From: Clostridia bacterium
GTDB lineage: Bacteria > Bacillota > Clostridia > Oscillospirales > Butyricicoccaceae
NCBI GenBank assembly: GCA_017453985.1
Contig: JAFTDT010000076.1
Location: forward strand, 1 to 39,049
Length of the DNA stretch: 39,049 bases
Direction of reading: 5' to 3'
Part shown: one piece after another, positions 2,084 to 39,049 of the stretch
Layout of the letters: each line of letters opens with the position of its first letter
How positions within the stretch are numbered: position 1 is the first letter of the stretch
The notes under the pieces: model-generated
The model's database searches: none
What the model saw: only the letters and a program-made list of their open reading frames with translations
Told to the model about the DNA's origin: nothing
Program-made: the position numbers and the translations under genes

Positions 2084-5000
2084 ATGAAAAAATTACTCAG
2101 CATGCTGCTGGCAGTAGCAATGGTACTGTCGCTGTGCGTGAACGTATTCGCTGTTAAGCAGAGCGAATACACTGAGACGGATGTTCTTGATATCAACGGC
2201 ATGAATACCGACGTCAAGGTCGTCCTCTTCGATTCCGACCAGAAGAGTCAGGATTACAGGGTCGAAAAGCTCTCCCGCGACCCCAGAGGCTTTCCGACCT
2301 TGACCCAGGCGCAGAAGGACGCCGGCTATGCCTACTATACGGCCTACCTCGCCGGCAGGATTGCTTGGTCGAGCAAGACCCCGACCCGCCGCATTGCGGG
2401 CGGCGGCTTGGTCGTTACGGTAAAGCCGTCGGTGGTGACCGGCTTGGCTCCCTACAATGCCTATGGAACCCAGACTGCTCAGCAAGTCATGGCGGCTAAC
2501 GTAAAGACAACCTCGTTCAGTCAAATAGCACTTAACACTGCGAATCAGGTGTATCAGTATACTCCCGGCAGCAACATGGAGAATGAAGAGACGCAGAAGA
2601 TTTACAAATTCCGCAATGGCTTTTTTGTTGCTGCGAATGAGGTCAATAATTACATGACCGACGAGGCGGGCAACTATTATTATGAGATAGAGCTTGAGGT
2701 GGCGAACCTGCTGGGCAAGCCCGGCGATCAGTTCCAGATAGTGGTTGATCTGTTTGTGGATACTGACGGAAAAGCAAGTGCAAGCTTTGTTCCGACGGAT
2801 GTGGCAACAGAAGTCAACCGTTATTGGGGAACGACTCCCGCCACCGTCACAATCCCCACGAAGGTCAGCTTTGACCTCAACGGCGGTACCGGCACCGTGC
2901 CTGCCGACGTCGATGATCTCGGCAAGGGCGACAAGATTGCGATGCCTCCGGTCGGCGACCGCACCAAGCCGAATGCCGTGCTGGTCGGCTGGAGCAAGGA
3001 GCAGAAGACCTCGCTGATCACCGACAGGAGCCAGCTCCCCGCCGACATGGGACCAGTAGGCGGCGAATACACCCTCACCGATCCGACCGTGCAGAAGCTC
3101 TATGCGGTCTGGGCGGAGCATAAGCTTCCCGATCCCGTGGACGACGAGGGCGATCCCATCCCCACCCCCGACTATGCCAAGGTCATTGTCAACTTCGAGC
3201 TGGACGGCGGCGAAGGCGGCAAGTGGAAGGTTCCGGATGGCACCACCAAGCAGGTCGTGCTTGTCTCTGACGACAGCGGAAACGCCAAGCTCCAGAGCAC
3301 CGACATCCCCAGCGTTGCTGAGAGCAACATCGTGCGCGGCTTGAAGAGGCTGACGACAGGTAAGTGGTCTCTGTCCCCCGCCACGGCGACTCCGCAGACA
3401 CCCAACACCACCGATAACCTCACCACGACCGTCAAGACCTATAATTATAAGTATACTCTTGACGCCAAGGGCGTGACCTACGGTTACTATAACGGAGAGA
3501 CCGGAGCGCGCATCGAGCTCGACCCGAACAATCCCAGCAACCCGGATCCGAGCACGGCTCCGACGCTCAACACGCCTGTCTACGGAACCGACGGCAAGAC
3601 CTACATAGTCACGGATATCGCTTCGACTCCCGATGATGATAACGAGGTCAAGGTCACGACATATCCGTCCACCGACGGCAAATATCCCGATTTCTTCCTC
3701 AAAGAGGTTACCTTTAAGATCAGAAACGGCTACTGGAACGGCAGCAATGACGCTGACAAGACGGAAAAGGTTCCTGTCATGCAGGGCGGTAAGTATGTCG
3801 TGGGCACCGACGGCAAGCCGGCGGGCACGATCGACTGGAATGAGTTCAGCACCAAGATTCCGAGCACTACCGGCGCAGCGCCCAAGAAGGGCTCCAAGGC
3901 AGGCACCGGCGTGTGGATCGATCCCAAGCCGATCCAGAGCGTTGTCACCACCTACGGATATAACGACGAAGCCGTGTTCACCTTCTCCTTCAGCAATTAC
4001 GTGTATATCGACGGCGATACCGGCAACGAGATCCCCGTAAATCCCAACGATCCGCGCAACCCCTCCGATCCCAAGCCGGGCGACAAGATCATTGACCTCG
4101 GAGGCAACAACTACATCGTTGGTGAGGTGCCGACCGATCCCACGACTCCGGGCGGTCCCATCGAGGTCATTTCTTATCTTGATGACGACAAGGATGGCGT
4201 TCCGGATCAGTTCGAGGTCAACATCACCTTCCATATCGATAACGGCTACTGGTCCGGCACCGATGCCGCCGACAAGAAGCTTCCTGTTATCGGCATCAAG
4301 TACAATGATGGCTACAAGTGGGACGAGGTGAACAATCGCCCCATGGGTCAGGCGACCTACACCGTGCAGGATACGACCAATGTGCGTCCGGACAGCGCGC
4401 ATGACCTGCCCGGCGACTGGGTTTCCTCCGATCCCGCCTCTTTCGGCAAGCCCACCGGCACGATCCTCGGCTCTGACGTGACTGGCAAGGGACCATACGA
4501 CGTCACCTTCTTCTTTGACTTCGAGAGCAAGGACATCAAGCTCACCGACGAAGGAGGTCTTGATATCAGCGTTCTCAAGGTCCTGCGTCCGGTCGGCAAT
4601 AGTCATGCTGATACCAATGAGCCTCTGACCGAGGGTTACGATCCGCGCATCACCAGCCGTACTGTTTATGTCAAGCTGGGCGATGATTATGCTGCGGGCG
4701 ATGCGGCTAACGTGACCAGAGTCAACGGCATACTCGAAAAGGCGACCTACCAGCGCTACACCAGAAACGGCTGGGAGGATGTCAGCAAGACCGATATCAC
4801 CAAGTACATGGATAAGCTCGAGGCAAAGATCGACAGCGGCAAGATCGGCGTCACCTTCACCTCCAAGGCTGTTGGCGTCATCAAGGTCACCTTCGAAAAC
4901 GGATCCGAGTTTGCCTTTGTCACCCCCGGTGATATCAATCTCGACGGCTTCATGAATGACAACGACTGGATCAACATCATGCGTTGGAGGCTGATAGGCA

Positions 5001-5185
5001 CTACTGCTGATGATGTGTTGCCCACGGACAGCATGTTCACCAACTTTAAGGTCAATAATGAGAGCTACAATCTGTGGATGCTGATGGGCGATATGAAGAC
5101 CACCGACGTTGTCGGCGAAAATACCAAGGTCAACGACAACGACTGGATCATCATCATGAGGCTGAGGCTGCAGGCGTGGAAATAA
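2084..5185 (+). CDS. Large secreted multidomain protein with dockerin-like C-terminus
   Basis: The predicted 1033-residue protein has a signal peptide (MKKLL, hydrophobic core, cleavage after VFA at about 23). Residues about 29-240 form an unrecognised domain shared with the next gene (GYAYY.AY...RIAW, GGGLV.T.KPS, NMENEE, NLL.K.GDQF). Residues 260-343 resemble an InlB-type/Listeria-Bacteroides repeat (FDLNGGTG ... KLYAVWA). Residues about 367-815 hold tandem modules of roughly 175 residues (FKIRNGYW / FHIDNGYW; DGDTGNEIPVNPNDP / NGETGARIELDPNNP), including an acidic DDDKDGVPD loop. The C-terminus carries a dockerin-like EF-hand loop at 950-961 (D,N,D,G,N,D at loop positions 1,3,5,6,9,12) and a degenerate second copy ending in DWIIIMRLRLQAWK. 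ATG 2084 is preferred over ATG 2075, which overlaps the AAAGGA ribosome binding site. No catalytic domain is recognisable, so an adhesion or scaffold role is only inferred. Confidence 0.85.
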   Translation: MKKLLSMLLAVAMVLSLCVNVFAVKQSEYTETDVLDINGMNTDVKVVLFDSDQKSQDYRVEKLSRDPRGFPTLTQAQKDAGYAYYTAYLAGRIAWSSKTPTRRIAGGGLVVTVKPSVVTGLAPYNAYGTQTAQQVMAANVKTTSFSQIALNTANQVYQYTPGSNMENEETQKIYKFRNGFFVAANEVNNYMTDEAGNYYYEIELEVANLLGKPGDQFQIVVDLFVDTDGKASASFVPTDVATEVNRYWGTTPATVTIPTKVSFDLNGGTGTVPADVDDLGKGDKIAMPPVGDRTKPNAVLVGWSKEQKTSLITDRSQLPADMGPVGGEYTLTDPTVQKLYAVWAEHKLPDPVDDEGDPIPTPDYAKVIVNFELDGGEGGKWKVPDGTTKQVVLVSDDSGNAKLQSTDIPSVAESNIVRGLKRLTTGKWSLSPATATPQTPNTTDNLTTTVKTYNYKYTLDAKGVTYGYYNGETGARIELDPNNPSNPDPSTAPTLNTPVYGTDGKTYIVTDIASTPDDDNEVKVTTYPSTDGKYPDFFLKEVTFKIRNGYWNGSNDADKTEKVPVMQGGKYVVGTDGKPAGTIDWNEFSTKIPSTTGAAPKKGSKAGTGVWIDPKPIQSVVTTYGYNDEAVFTFSFSNYVYIDGDTGNEIPVNPNDPRNPSDPKPGDKIIDLGGNNYIVGEVPTDPTTPGGPIEVISYLDDDKDGVPDQFEVNITFHIDNGYWSGTDAADKKLPVIGIKYNDGYKWDEVNNRPMGQATYTVQDTTNVRPDSAHDLPGDWVSSDPASFGKPTGTILGSDVTGKGPYDVTFFFDFESKDIKLTDEGGLDISVLKVLRPVGNSHADTNEPLTEGYDPRITSRTVYVKLGDDYAAGDAANVTRVNGILEKATYQRYTRNGWEDVSKTDITKYMDKLEAKIDSGKIGVTFTSKAVGVIKVTFENGSEFAFVTPGDINLDGFMNDNDWINIMRWRLIGTTADDVLPTDSMFTNFKVNNESYNLWMLMGDMKTTDVVGENTKVNDNDWIIIMRLRLQAWK

Positions 5186-5218
5186 GCGTGCAGAAGCTCC
5201 TATAAACTTTGGCAGTAT

Positions 5219-5247
5219 GTCATCCGCGGATGTCCTCCGCGGATGAC
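5219..5247 (+). other. Perfect 12-bp intercistronic hairpin
   Basis: GTCATCCGCGGA (5219-5230) pairs perfectly with TCCGCGGATGAC (5236-5247) around a 5-nt loop, between the dockerin-like gene and the SLH gene. No U-tract follows, so it is a poor intrinsic terminator; an mRNA-stability or partial-termination element between the two cistrons is plausible. Confidence 0.6.
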
Positions 5248-5298
5248 GTAAAGCAAATAAATTATTCAAATCTATGGAACAATGAAAGGAATGGTACG

Positions 5299-8040
5299 AT
5301 GAAGAAAAAACTCAGTTTGCTTCTTGCGTTTGTCATGGTGCTTTCGCTTTCCCTCACCTCCGTTTTTGCGGATGCGAGCCTGAAAGATGATTACACGGAA
5401 ACGCAGGAACTCGGCACGGCAGAAATCAAAGTTATTACCTTCAAGACAAATGTAGAAACGGATGTTGAGAAGGGGAGCAAGCCGAGAGGCTGGGCGGATC
5501 CTGCTGAAGGATATGCGTATTATAATGCGTATGTTGGTATCCGCATAGCCTGGGATGGCAAGACTGCGGACCGGAGATGGGGTGGAGGCGGACTGGTCTT
5601 CACGATCAAGCCCTCGCTCAAAAATGATAAGACTCCGGCATACATTAGTCAGGATAATATGGTAAACAGTGTGTCTGTTGTGGCTGGCGGAGATGCTTCT
5701 ATTCTTACGGGAAGTAATGCTGTTAAGAACTATGTCGCAAAGACCAACATGGAGAATGAAGAGGCGAACAATATCTTCAAGTTCCGATCTGGCGCGATGG
5801 CTGAGGCCGGAGCTGTTGTCAAGACGGATGAGAAGGGGAATAAGTATTACCATTTTGAGCTGCAATTCTCAAATCTGCTTGCAAAGGAAGGCGATCAGTT
5901 CCCCCTCCTTGTTGAGGCGTTTATCGACGACAAGGGCGATGTTGGCGCCAGTTGGCTCCCCACCACCCTCACCGATCCGGCAGTGCAGGTAGCTGCTGTC
6001 GAGGGTCTCATCGTTATCCCGGGTGAGGCTTCGGGTGGAGATACTTCTGCCGATTCCGTCAGCGCCGGTCCCATCACCGCCAAGAAGGACGAGGCGATCA
6101 CTCCGATCACTGCCACTCAGACCGGCGGCACCGAGGGCGGCGAATGGTCTGCGACCGGTCTGCCCGAGGGCGTAACGATCGATCCGGTTAGCGGCGTGAT
6201 TTCCGGTACTCCCACCGGCACGACCCCCAGCGGAACGTATAAAGTTACTTACACCGTAGGCGGTATGGCGACTCAGTCCCCGGCATACAACTGGACTGTT
6301 GAGCAGCCCACCTCCGTAAAGCCGGTCATCAAGCCGGTTGGCAAGATAGAGCAGACCACGGAAGATGAAGTCAACGTTCAGCTTGAGCTGGAAGAAGGCA
6401 AGACGGGCGGCACATGGGGATTCGATGGTCTCCCCGGCGGACTGGTTATTGACACCACCAAAGGCACGATCACCGGCAAGCCGAATGCTGCGGGCGACGG
6501 CAAGATCACTGTCAGATACACCGATCCGGACGGCAATGCGGCTGATCCGATAGAGATCGAGTATTCGATCACCGTTCCCGCCACCGATCCCACCCTCGCT
6601 TATGATGCGAAGGATGTCAAGCTCGGCGAGGCTGTCACGCTCACTCCGACCACGACGAACCTTGGCGACAGCCTCACTTACACGGCGGAAGGTCTTCCCA
6701 CGTGGCTGACGCTGAATGCGGACGGCACCATCACCGGCACCGCTCCCGACGCTGAGGAGAATGTCAGCTTCACCGTGACTGTTACGGATCAGGTTGGCGA
6801 GTCTGCTACGACTACCGTCACCTTCAAGGTATACGATCCTGACAAGGAGACCGAGCCGACCTCCGTCACCGCCGGCAACATCACCGGTTATGTCGGTGAG
6901 AACATCACGCCTGTCACTGCGAGTCAGCAGGGCGGCACTTCGGGCGGTAAGTACAAGATCGAGGGCACTCTGCCTGTGGGTCTGACCCTCAATGAGGATA
7001 CCGGCGTTATCAGCGGCAAGGTCGATGCTCCTTACGAGGGCACCTACAAGGTGAGCTACACGACTCACAAGGGCACCTACACCAAGGAGTCTGTCGAGTA
7101 CACCATCAAGATCACCGAGAGACCTGTCAATCCGTACGGACCGGATGACAACTTCTCCAGTACCTACACGCTGACCTATGAGACCAACGGCGGCAACAAC
7201 ATCGGCAGCGAGAGATTTAAGAGGGGCAGCGTTGTTACCCTGACTAAGATCCCGGTACGCGCCGGCTACACCTTCGACGGCTGGTACAGCGATGCTGATC
7301 TGAAGAACAAGATCGAGAAGATCGAGATGGACGGCAACAAGACCGTTTACGCCGGCTGGAAGAAGACCGAGACCCCCGATGTGTTTGATGCTGAGCACTT
7401 TGCTTACATCCTCGGTTATCCGGATGGCACTGTTCGTCCGAAGAACAACATCACCCGCGCCGAGGTTGCGACCATCTTCTACCGTCTGCTGAGCGAGCAG
7501 GTCCGCAATGAGAATACGACTGCGACCAACAGCTTCAGCGATGTAAATAACGGCGATTGGTTCAACGTGGCTGTCTCCACCATGGCTAAGATGGGCATCA
7601 TCAACGGCTATGAGGATGGCACCTTCCGTCCGCAGGAGAACATCACCAGAGCTGAGTTTGCGGCTATCGCTTCTCGCTTTGACACCAAGAATACTGCCGT
7701 ACCGAATGCTGACTTTGCCGATATCGAAGGCCACTGGGGCAAGATCGAGATCAGCAAGGCTGCTATGAACGGCTGGATCACCGGCGATCCCACCGGCAAC
7801 TTCCGTCCGAATGACAAGCTGACCCGCGCTGAGGCGATGGCTATCATCAACCGCGTCCTCAACCGCGTCGTTGAGTCCGAGGAAGCTTTCCTGCCGGGCA
7901 TGAAGACTTGGTCTGACAATGCTGACAAGACTATGTGGTACTATCTGGATGTCCAGGAAGCGACCAACGGCCACAAGCACGAGGTCGATGAGAACGGCGT
8001 CGAGAAGTGGATCGAGCTGCTCCCGAACCGCACCTGGTAA
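5299..8040 (+). CDS. Cell-surface protein with Ig-like repeats and three SLH domains
   Basis: The predicted 913-residue protein has a signal peptide (MKKKLSLLLAFVMV, cleavage after VFA at 24). Residues about 30-225 are the domain shared with the upstream protein. Four Ig/cadherin-like 'He_PIG' repeats lie at about 250-335, 340-426, 430-512 and 520-607, recognisable by GLP.G(V/L).(I/L)....G.I(S/T)G.P. An InlB-type repeat is at 621-688 (YETNGGN, AGYTFDGWYSD, VYAGW). Three SLH repeats at about 695-735, 745-793 and 805-855 carry the ITRAE/LTRAE signatures and should bind pyruvylated secondary cell-wall polymer. ATG 5299 follows GAAAGGAATGG and gives a proper signal peptide, unlike a start 90 nt upstream. 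SLH anchoring is established for the family; the ligand of the shared N-terminal domain is unknown. Confidence 0.9.
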   Translation: MKKKLSLLLAFVMVLSLSLTSVFADASLKDDYTETQELGTAEIKVITFKTNVETDVEKGSKPRGWADPAEGYAYYNAYVGIRIAWDGKTADRRWGGGGLVFTIKPSLKNDKTPAYISQDNMVNSVSVVAGGDASILTGSNAVKNYVAKTNMENEEANNIFKFRSGAMAEAGAVVKTDEKGNKYYHFELQFSNLLAKEGDQFPLLVEAFIDDKGDVGASWLPTTLTDPAVQVAAVEGLIVIPGEASGGDTSADSVSAGPITAKKDEAITPITATQTGGTEGGEWSATGLPEGVTIDPVSGVISGTPTGTTPSGTYKVTYTVGGMATQSPAYNWTVEQPTSVKPVIKPVGKIEQTTEDEVNVQLELEEGKTGGTWGFDGLPGGLVIDTTKGTITGKPNAAGDGKITVRYTDPDGNAADPIEIEYSITVPATDPTLAYDAKDVKLGEAVTLTPTTTNLGDSLTYTAEGLPTWLTLNADGTITGTAPDAEENVSFTVTVTDQVGESATTTVTFKVYDPDKETEPTSVTAGNITGYVGENITPVTASQQGGTSGGKYKIEGTLPVGLTLNEDTGVISGKVDAPYEGTYKVSYTTHKGTYTKESVEYTIKITERPVNPYGPDDNFSSTYTLTYETNGGNNIGSERFKRGSVVTLTKIPVRAGYTFDGWYSDADLKNKIEKIEMDGNKTVYAGWKKTETPDVFDAEHFAYILGYPDGTVRPKNNITRAEVATIFYRLLSEQVRNENTTATNSFSDVNNGDWFNVAVSTMAKMGIINGYEDGTFRPQENITRAEFAAIASRFDTKNTAVPNADFADIEGHWGKIEISKAAMNGWITGDPTGNFRPNDKLTRAEAMAIINRVLNRVVESEEAFLPGMKTWSDNADKTMWYYLDVQEATNGHKHEVDENGVEKWIELLPNRTW

Positions 8041-8105: not shown

Positions 8106-8141
8106 GCGAGCCTGACGGGTTTCCCGTCAGGCTCGCTTTTT
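8106..8141 (+). terminator. Rho-independent terminator of the dockerin/SLH unit
   Basis: A perfect 14-bp stem, GCGAGCCTGACGGG (8106-8119) with CCCGTCAGGCTCGC (8123-8136), has a TTT loop and is followed by TTTTT. Confidence 0.95.
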
Positions 8142-10019: not shown

Positions 10020-11290
10020 TATTTTCCATTCCCCTCTATGTGTTTTATTATTTCATCTGCCGTTATCGCGCACGGCGTCTGCTCGCCGGAGCGCATGTCC
10101 TTGAGCAGCAGCGTGCCGGCATCCAGCTCGCTCTGCCCGATCACCGCGGAAAAACGCGCGCCCGTGCGGTCGGCGTGCTTGAGCTGCGCCTTCAGCCCGC
10201 GCCCGCATACGTCCGCCTCGGCTGCCGCGCCGAGCCCGCGCAGCTCCTGCGTGAGCCGCGAGGCGAGCGCCTGACCCGGCTCGTCCGCGCCGGCAAGAAA
10301 GATATCCGGTACGGGCGCGGGCGGGAACTCAAAGCCGCAAGCCTGCGCCACGGCGATGAGGCGCTCCAGCCCGCAGCCGAAGCCGACCGCCGGCATGCTG
10401 CCGCCGCCGAGCTGCTCTATCAGCCCGTCGTAGCGTCCGCCGCCCAGCACCGTGCCCTGCGCGCCGATGTCGGTGGACACGAACTCGAACACCGAGCGCG
10501 TGTAATAGTCCAGCCCGCGCACGATGCGGGAATCTATCTCATAGCCGATGCCCATTCCGTCCAGCGTGCTGCGAAGCACGCCGAAGTGCGTCTTGCACTC
10601 CTCGCAAAGATAATCGATGCTGCGCGGAGCGTCCGCCGCGATTTTTTTGCAGCCGTCCTCCTTGCAGTCCAGCACGCGCATGGGGTTGCGCTCCATGCGC
10701 TCAAGGCAGGTCTTGCACAGCCCGCCGCGGTGCTTTTCCAGATAAGCCAGCAGCGCCTCGTAATATTTCGGGCGGCACTTGGGGCAGCCGATGGAGTTTA
10801 TCCGCAGCTCCGTCTTGATGCCCAGCCTGTCCATCATATGCTTGCCGAGAGCGATGACCTCCGCGTCCGCGTGGGCGTCCGGCGAGCCGAAGCACTCCAC
10901 CCCGAACTGATGATGCTCGCGCAGACGCAGAGACTGCGGCTGCTCGTAGCGGAACATGGGGGCGATATAATACGCCTTGTAGGGCGTGCCGAGCTGATTT
11001 TCCCCGTTTTCTATATAAGCGCGCACGGCGGAAGCCGTCCCCTCCGGCCGCAGGGTGATGGAGCGTCCGCCCTTGTCCTCAAAGGTGTACATCTCCTTCT
11101 GCACCACGTCGGTGGTGTCGCCGATGCCGCGCAGGACAAGCTCCGTATGCTCAAAGGCGGGGAAGCGTATCTCGCGAAAGCCGTAGCGCCGCGCCGCGTC
11201 CCGCACCGTCCCCTCGACAAAGTGCCAGAGGTGGCTCTCCCTCACGGTGACGTCCGCCGTCCCCTTGGGGCGCTGAATTTTCTGTCCCAT
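10019..11290 (-). CDS. hisS: Histidyl-tRNA synthetase
   Basis: The 423-residue class IIa synthetase charges tRNA-His. It begins with the usual RPKGTAD motif. The ATP-site motif 2 region contains FRYEQPQSLRLREHHQFGVE (113-132), and the HisA signature is GLDYYTRSVFEF (259-270). The core is followed by motif 3 (GFGCGLERL) and a C-terminal anticodon-binding domain (about 330-420). Between motif 2 and HisA lie eight cysteines in four pairs (C169/C172, C192/C195, C209/C214, C229/C232), a likely zinc-binding insertion of the kind seen in clostridial HisRS. It starts 13 nt after the MgsA-like gene and is coupled to aspS. Confidence 0.97.
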   Translation of the reverse strand: MGQKIQRPKGTADVTVRESHLWHFVEGTVRDAARRYGFREIRFPAFEHTELVLRGIGDTTDVVQKEMYTFEDKGGRSITLRPEGTASAVRAYIENGENQLGTPYKAYYIAPMFRYEQPQSLRLREHHQFGVECFGSPDAHADAEVIALGKHMMDRLGIKTELRINSIGCPKCRPKYYEALLAYLEKHRGGLCKTCLERMERNPMRVLDCKEDGCKKIAADAPRSIDYLCEECKTHFGVLRSTLDGMGIGYEIDSRIVRGLDYYTRSVFEFVSTDIGAQGTVLGGGRYDGLIEQLGGGSMPAVGFGCGLERLIAVAQACGFEFPPAPVPDIFLAGADEPGQALASRLTQELRGLGAAAEADVCGRGLKAQLKHADRTGARFSAVIGQSELDAGTLLLKDMRSGEQTPCAITADEIIKHIEGNGK

Positions 11291-38992: not shown

Positions 38993-39049
38993 CTATTTCC
39001 ACGCCTGCAGAGTAAGCTGCATGATGGTGATCCAGTCAACGGCATTGAC
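38993..39049 (-). CDS. C-terminus of a dockerin-like secreted protein (partial)
   Basis: The minus strand encodes 18 codons and a TAG stop, reading VNAVDWITIMQLTLQAWK; the rest lies beyond the window edge. This ending is almost the same as the C-terminus of the secreted protein at 2084-5185 (VNDNDWIIIMRLRLQAWK), both in residues and in DNA (CTGCAGGCGTGGAAATA). It is therefore most likely the last helix of the same dockerin-like module in a third family member. A matching terminator follows directly, which supports a real gene end. Confidence 0.75.
   Translation of the reverse strand, partial: VNAVDWITIMQLTLQAWK

Follow-up and report, generated by a model that had tools for sequence, protein, structure and literature searches.

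A head domain shared by an SLH-anchored and a dockerin-tailed exported protein in a Clostridia genome

Two adjacent genes of a Clostridia bacterium, referred to here as A and B, encode proteins that start alike and end differently. In protein A, a signal peptide is followed by a domain called the head, an InlB-like segment, two internal repeats, an X-like segment and a dockerin-like tail; in protein B, the signal peptide and head are followed by He_PIG repeats, an InlB-type repeat and three SLH modules. This arrangement raises the question of what the head is, i.e., whether it belongs to a known family, and what it does when joined to two different tails. A first-pass annotation of the same 39,049-bp stretch of DNA (the whole stretch is denoted the window) had offered one answer, marked as speculation, in which a cohesin-like head would make the pair an adaptor scaffoldin and its anchor.

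Both reading frames have a ribosome-binding site and a Sec signal peptide, which identifies them as genuine genes (Table 1). They are separated by 113 bp. The hairpin found in this gap was not counted as a terminator and no terminator-like site was called there; on the + strand, terminator-like sites with T runs come after B, from position 8106 on. Because the gap lacks a called terminator and the first ones are located downstream of B, co-transcription of A and B is plausible.

Table 1. Sequence features of genes A and B and of the DNA between and after them (aa, residues of the encoded protein)
Feature	Position	Strand	Remarks
Gene A	2084..5185	+	1033 aa; ATG with AAAGGATGG ribosome-binding site
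Head of A	2153..2863	+	aa 24-260
Post-head patch of A	2846..3196	+	351 bp; DNA 93% identical to C45:10893-11240
Stalk-like repeats of A	3485..4303	+	two related blocks of ~100 residues, aa 468-571 and 641-740
X-module-like segment of A	4607..4921	+	precedes dockerin; common to the genome's dockerin proteins; 20 complete modules aligned
Divergent dockerin of A	4922..5182	+	first loop canonical, DINLDGFMNDND; second loop broken by an insertion
Hairpin in A-B gap	5216..5250	+	perfect, 15 bp; z -4.3; without T run
Gene B	5299..8040	+	913 aa
Head of B	5371..6027	+	aa 25-243
InlB-type (Flg_new) repeat of B	7165..7353	+	aa 623-685
SLH modules of B	7408..7836	+	three; cell-wall anchor; best E 2.9e-17
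Terminator-like hairpin	8106..8136		14 bp with T run; closes the A-B unit

The two heads are homologous. BLASTP aligns them over 213 aa with 42% identity and 56% similarity (E 5e-44), and all motifs by which the first-pass annotation had recognized one domain on both proteins (YTET, PRG, GYAYY, RIAW, GGGLV, NMENEE and GDQF) are present. A full-length comparison yields a single aligned stretch, residues 1-238 of A with 1-222 of B, signal peptides included, and no further common stretch downstream of the heads, in agreement with the earlier view that the proteins are unrelated beyond this point. The domain terminates in an 'IxIP' strand, which is included in the refined limits given in Table 1.

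The pair represents part of a larger set. The assembly (2.06 Mb, 97.7% complete) holds nine head copies in seven proteins: one each in A and B, one and two in two proteins on contig C45, two in a protein on C88, one in a protein on C73 and one in a protein on C6 that is cut at the contig end. The head is thus a domain family that extends beyond the gene pair. The earlier description of a pair encoding wall-anchored and dockerin-bearing versions of one head is accurate for A and B, but these are two of the seven proteins that carry it. All seven are modular exported proteins, of which five end in an X-dockerin, one in SLH modules and one at a contig end. In four proteins and the incomplete C6 frame, no other domain lies between the signal peptide and the head; elsewhere the head can be internal, such that the label "N-terminal" suits A and B but not every copy.

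The head had been reported as unrecognized, and family searches bear this out. No copy matches a Pfam or NCBIfam model above cut-off, a Pfam scan of eight heads gave neither a cohesin nor a carbohydrate-binding module (CBM), and a sequence search of the PDB returned weak local matches with no convincing relative; one of these, to a BAR protein (E 0.003), was judged to be a non-homologous coiled-coil alignment. Profile searches covered 99 relatives (60 of the same family) and 394, 391 and 399 genomes drawn from the order, class and phylum, respectively, the draws partly overlapping, and this genome alone gave a convincing match. In the class draw, four other genomes matched at E 0.003-0.04; on inspection, two of these matches seem to be a frame resembling an ATPase and a protein of the aspergillopepsin type, both having the same local motif. 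Pattern scans, two over 84,980 species genomes and one over viral contigs, and a tblastn search of plasmids and phages revealed no convincing head. Among the genomes searched, the head is therefore restricted to this bacterium, i.e., to one genus represented by a single genome. Judged from its sequence, it is a real, previously undescribed domain.

Structure prediction suggests a strand-rich fold. With the two window heads as input, AlphaFold returned low-confidence models: eight strands for the B head (pLDDT 54, pTM 0.57) and a model with pLDDT 43 for the A head; the main strands agree between the two models. The low-confidence B model retrieved generic beta-sandwiches in Foldseek, including pilins, adhesins and one cohesin, all with low TM-scores. 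From these models the head is likely a beta-sandwich; the strand-rich pattern noted earlier is thus plausible, but weakly modelled.

An alignment of eight head copies displays invariant G, Y, M, R, D-x-x-G-N-x-Y, D-x-F, G and P positions, most of which seem to serve the structure, being turn glycines, prolines or parts of GN and GD motifs; the aligned copies show neither an aromatic nor a catalytic signature that is conserved. The structural look of these residues would also suit a stalk, a spacer or a self-association domain that binds no external ligand, as would the pilin and adhesin sandwiches among the weak Foldseek matches and the finding that the head can be repeated in one chain or reside internally beside Ig-like repeats (C45, C88). 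However, with ~200 aa and long variable loops the head is larger than typical spacer repeats, and its place directly after the signal peptide in four proteins and the C6 frame is the usual position of a distal binding head, which makes such a purely structural role unlikely. Protein A contains stalk-like repeats in the form of two related blocks, which are 37% identical over 106 columns (E 4e-13).

The possibility that the head is a cohesin was addressed by comparing profiles. In a class draw of 291 genomes, 124 contain a Pfam cohesin match at E <= 0.001; this genome has none above the Pfam cut-off. Against a cohesin profile built from 72 domains of the class-draw genomes, three head alignments reached hhalign probabilities of 0.7-5.5% over 17-24 non-collinear columns, in which the C-terminal part of the head is paired with the N-terminal strand of cohesin. 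In contrast, two cohesin-like domains encoded elsewhere in the genome, used as the positive control, gave 95.8% (E 7e-9) over 80 collinear columns. When its columns are shuffled, the head profile scores no more than 14.7 bits, compared to 19.8 for the real one, so a 'KPGDxF' motif is common to head and cohesin beyond noise, yet is local and out of register. The likeness to cohesin (PF00963) consists of this local 'aKpGDxFxVxV' motif and, possibly, of a beta-sandwich fold; the differences are the lack of collinearity and the length, about 205 residues for the head and 140 for cohesin. Given this comparison and its positive control, the heads are not cohesins by sequence, and the cohesin-like head suggested earlier is not supported. 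Nor is there evidence that A and B are an adaptor scaffoldin and its anchor, because the heads fail a collinear match to the cohesin profile while the two other domains pass.

Because cohesin sequences diverge strongly, a weaker form of the idea retains a low probability: the head could be a highly divergent cohesin, in which case B would serve as the anchoring scaffoldin and dockerin proteins would be captured by adaptor scaffoldins, namely A and its paralogues. At least 22 dockerin-type proteins of this genome need a partner; the placement of heads on an SLH protein (B) and on dockerin-bearing chains with one or two copies apiece resembles a scaffoldin architecture; head and X-dockerin are both lineage-restricted; and the cohesin entry 5lxv is among the weak matches (sequence search E 0.009; Foldseek E 0.004, prob 0.8). 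Yet superposition on 5lxv is poor (TM 0.28-0.35, rmsd 12, with a low-confidence model), other beta-sandwiches rank equally high in Foldseek, none of the eight heads has a Pfam cohesin match, and hhalign values of 2.8-5.5% with 23-24 out-of-register columns stand against the 95.8% of the control. We regard a divergent cohesin as very unlikely.

The dockerin-like nature of the A tail, in contrast, stood up. The last ~190 residues of A are common to at least 22 open frames of the genome, in addition to contig-end fragments, and a profile of the 20 complete modules retrieves only dockerins from the PDB (13 of 13 matches at E <= 0.1, best 3.7e-4). Pfam Dockerin_1 weakly matches 17 of the 20 (best E 9e-4) and does not match A taken alone. 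As in the type I dockerins of Clostridium thermocellum (4fl4, 1ohz, 1daq), a first Ca2+-binding loop of the type DxNxDGxxNxxD is followed by a helix; unlike in these, the second loop of the aligned members contains an insertion that breaks it up, so that they lack a second canonical loop, and a lineage-specific X-like segment precedes the dockerin. Type III dockerins and X-dockerins of Ruminococcus flavefaciens show comparable kinds of deviation. The preceding segment, ~105 aa and conserved in all 20 complete modules, is reminiscent of an X module, but at E <= 0.1 no known X module in the PDB matches it in sequence. In a draw of 295 genomes of the order, this one included, weak dockerin-loop matches were the only trace of the X-dockerin module elsewhere.

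Among the other proteins ending in this module are a subtilase, papain-like peptidases that also have a lectin-like domain, a GH5 cellulase and proteins with a CAP domain, leucine-rich repeats or InlB-type repeats. One of them, a CAP-domain protein (C111:2-3165, minus strand), adjoins the gene for CsaB. Another runs off the right end of the window, where its last 18 residues are encoded on the minus strand (38996-39049), and contigs C68, C70, C111 and C112 likewise start or end within X-dockerin tails; these repeats probably broke the assembly.

The tail of B is a cell-wall anchor of the SLH type, preceded by four He_PIG Ig-like repeats and one InlB-type repeat, as the first-pass annotation had described in outline. 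SLH anchoring requires the pyruvyltransferase CsaB, which the genome encodes (247.8 bits, curated cut-off 213.1); this supports SLH-type anchoring of B. In SLH-anchored cellulosome proteins such as OlpA and SdbA of C. thermocellum, an N-terminal module is followed by linker or Ig repeats and a C-terminal SLH triplet. Protein B has the same layout, except that its N-terminal module is not a recognizable cohesin.

If the A tail docks, it needs a receptor. The two cohesin-like domains of the genome are found in subtilases on contigs C100 and C55, as weak sites below the Pfam cut-off; neither a further cohesin-like domain nor a multi-cohesin scaffoldin was found in the genome. The C100 subtilase (C100:254-8593, minus strand) has an internal canonical dockerin (aa 1372-1427), the cohesin-like domain (about aa 2350-2475) and a C-terminal X-dockerin. 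Its counterpart on C55 is SLH-anchored and combines a subtilase with a cohesin-like domain related to that of C100; on sequence grounds, this C55 domain is a better candidate dockerin partner than the heads. A genome of 2 Mb thus devotes at least 22 proteins to a lineage-specific X-dockerin tail without a Pfam-recognizable scaffoldin, and the two subtilase domains render the question of the dockerin partner directly testable.

From the above discussion, we favor a reading, with a probability of about 0.55, in which A and B are secreted surface proteins assembled from a lineage-specific set of interchangeable modules, and the shared head binds an external ligand. The head (~220 residues, probably beta-rich) would bind a polysaccharide, a glycoprotein or another surface polymer and would be presented by the repeat stalks. 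The SLH modules of B would attach directly to the secondary cell-wall polymer, while A, like no fewer than 21 further proteins, would use its C-terminal X-dockerin dyad to dock to a cohesin-like receptor on the cell surface. This reading draws on the homology of the heads, their nine exported copies, the dockerin tail, the SLH modules with CsaB and the low-confidence strand-rich model; the structural-looking invariants, the pLDDT values of 54 and 43, the missing multi-cohesin scaffoldin and the non-canonical second loop count against it.

Accessory binding modules are often joined to catalytic domains. No catalytic Pfam domain occurs in A, in B or in the two C45 proteins, while two other head proteins have one next to the head (papain-like in one, of CHAP type and weakly matching in the other), which favors an accessory binding role. 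R. flavefaciens offers a precedent: ScaB, CttA and a cysteine peptidase have in common an insertion-containing X-dockerin by which they bind ScaE, a wall-anchored protein (PMC5301203). By analogy, the dockerin version would work like CttA, which binds without being catalytic and is attached to the wall by its X-dockerin. The systems are alike in that a non-catalytic binding protein or enzymes end in an X module and dockerin, the dockerins have insertions, cysteine peptidases are among the tagged proteins, and anchoring to the wall would, in the present case too, proceed via one receptor. They differ in that no sequence match of the head or the X segment was found, no ScaE-like sortase-anchored cohesin was identified in this genome, and the anchor of B is SLH rather than LPXTG.

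A narrower form of the binding-head reading, in which the head is a CBM that founds a new family and directs enzymes and cells to one polysaccharide, gains from CttA as a precedent (PMC5301203), from a GH5 domain in one X-dockerin protein (without a head) and from the peptidase- or amidase-like domains of two head proteins. However, there is no Pfam CBM match, the head sits with protease or CHAP-like modules and not on the GH5 protein, and conserved surface aromatics are not evident; we consider this form rather unlikely. Highly improbable, in our judgment, is a cohesin-unrelated dockerin receptor that co-evolved with the X-dockerin, in which case B would provide the anchor, and A with its paralogues the branches, of a private and mostly non-cellulolytic surface assembly of at least 22 proteins.

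Returning to a ligand-binding head displayed by either tail, the genome places peptidases, leucine-rich repeat proteins and the orphan head on one of two attachments, the X-dockerin tail or SLH modules. If the docking is true, this would be a cohesin-dockerin-type surface display that serves largely non-cellulase proteins, and the head would represent a new binding family.

Gene A has a full-length paralogue at C45:10149-13430. The third-codon-position identity between them is about 0.45 across head, middle and tail alike, indicating that these parts diverged together, and rapid evolution of the head between the paralogues is thereby ruled out. The post-head patch (Table 1) alone is recent, the two genes being far more diverged outside it, and is a probable case of gene conversion as judged from the DNA. 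An MFS transporter gene upstream of A (368-1588) also has a paralogue on this contig (C45:207-1261, 70% DNA identity), and the presence of both paralogues on one contig suggests an old segmental duplication. The region from 8226 to 38419 looks housekeeping (AspS, HisS, PBP, MreC, U32 peptidase, tRNA-Leu, SecY, RpoA). A palindrome-containing element, GGCTCTCCCTCTGGGAGA, is located at 1615-1632, in the interval that separates the MFS gene from A; a weaker second match is found at 11233 (0.04 matches expected by chance).
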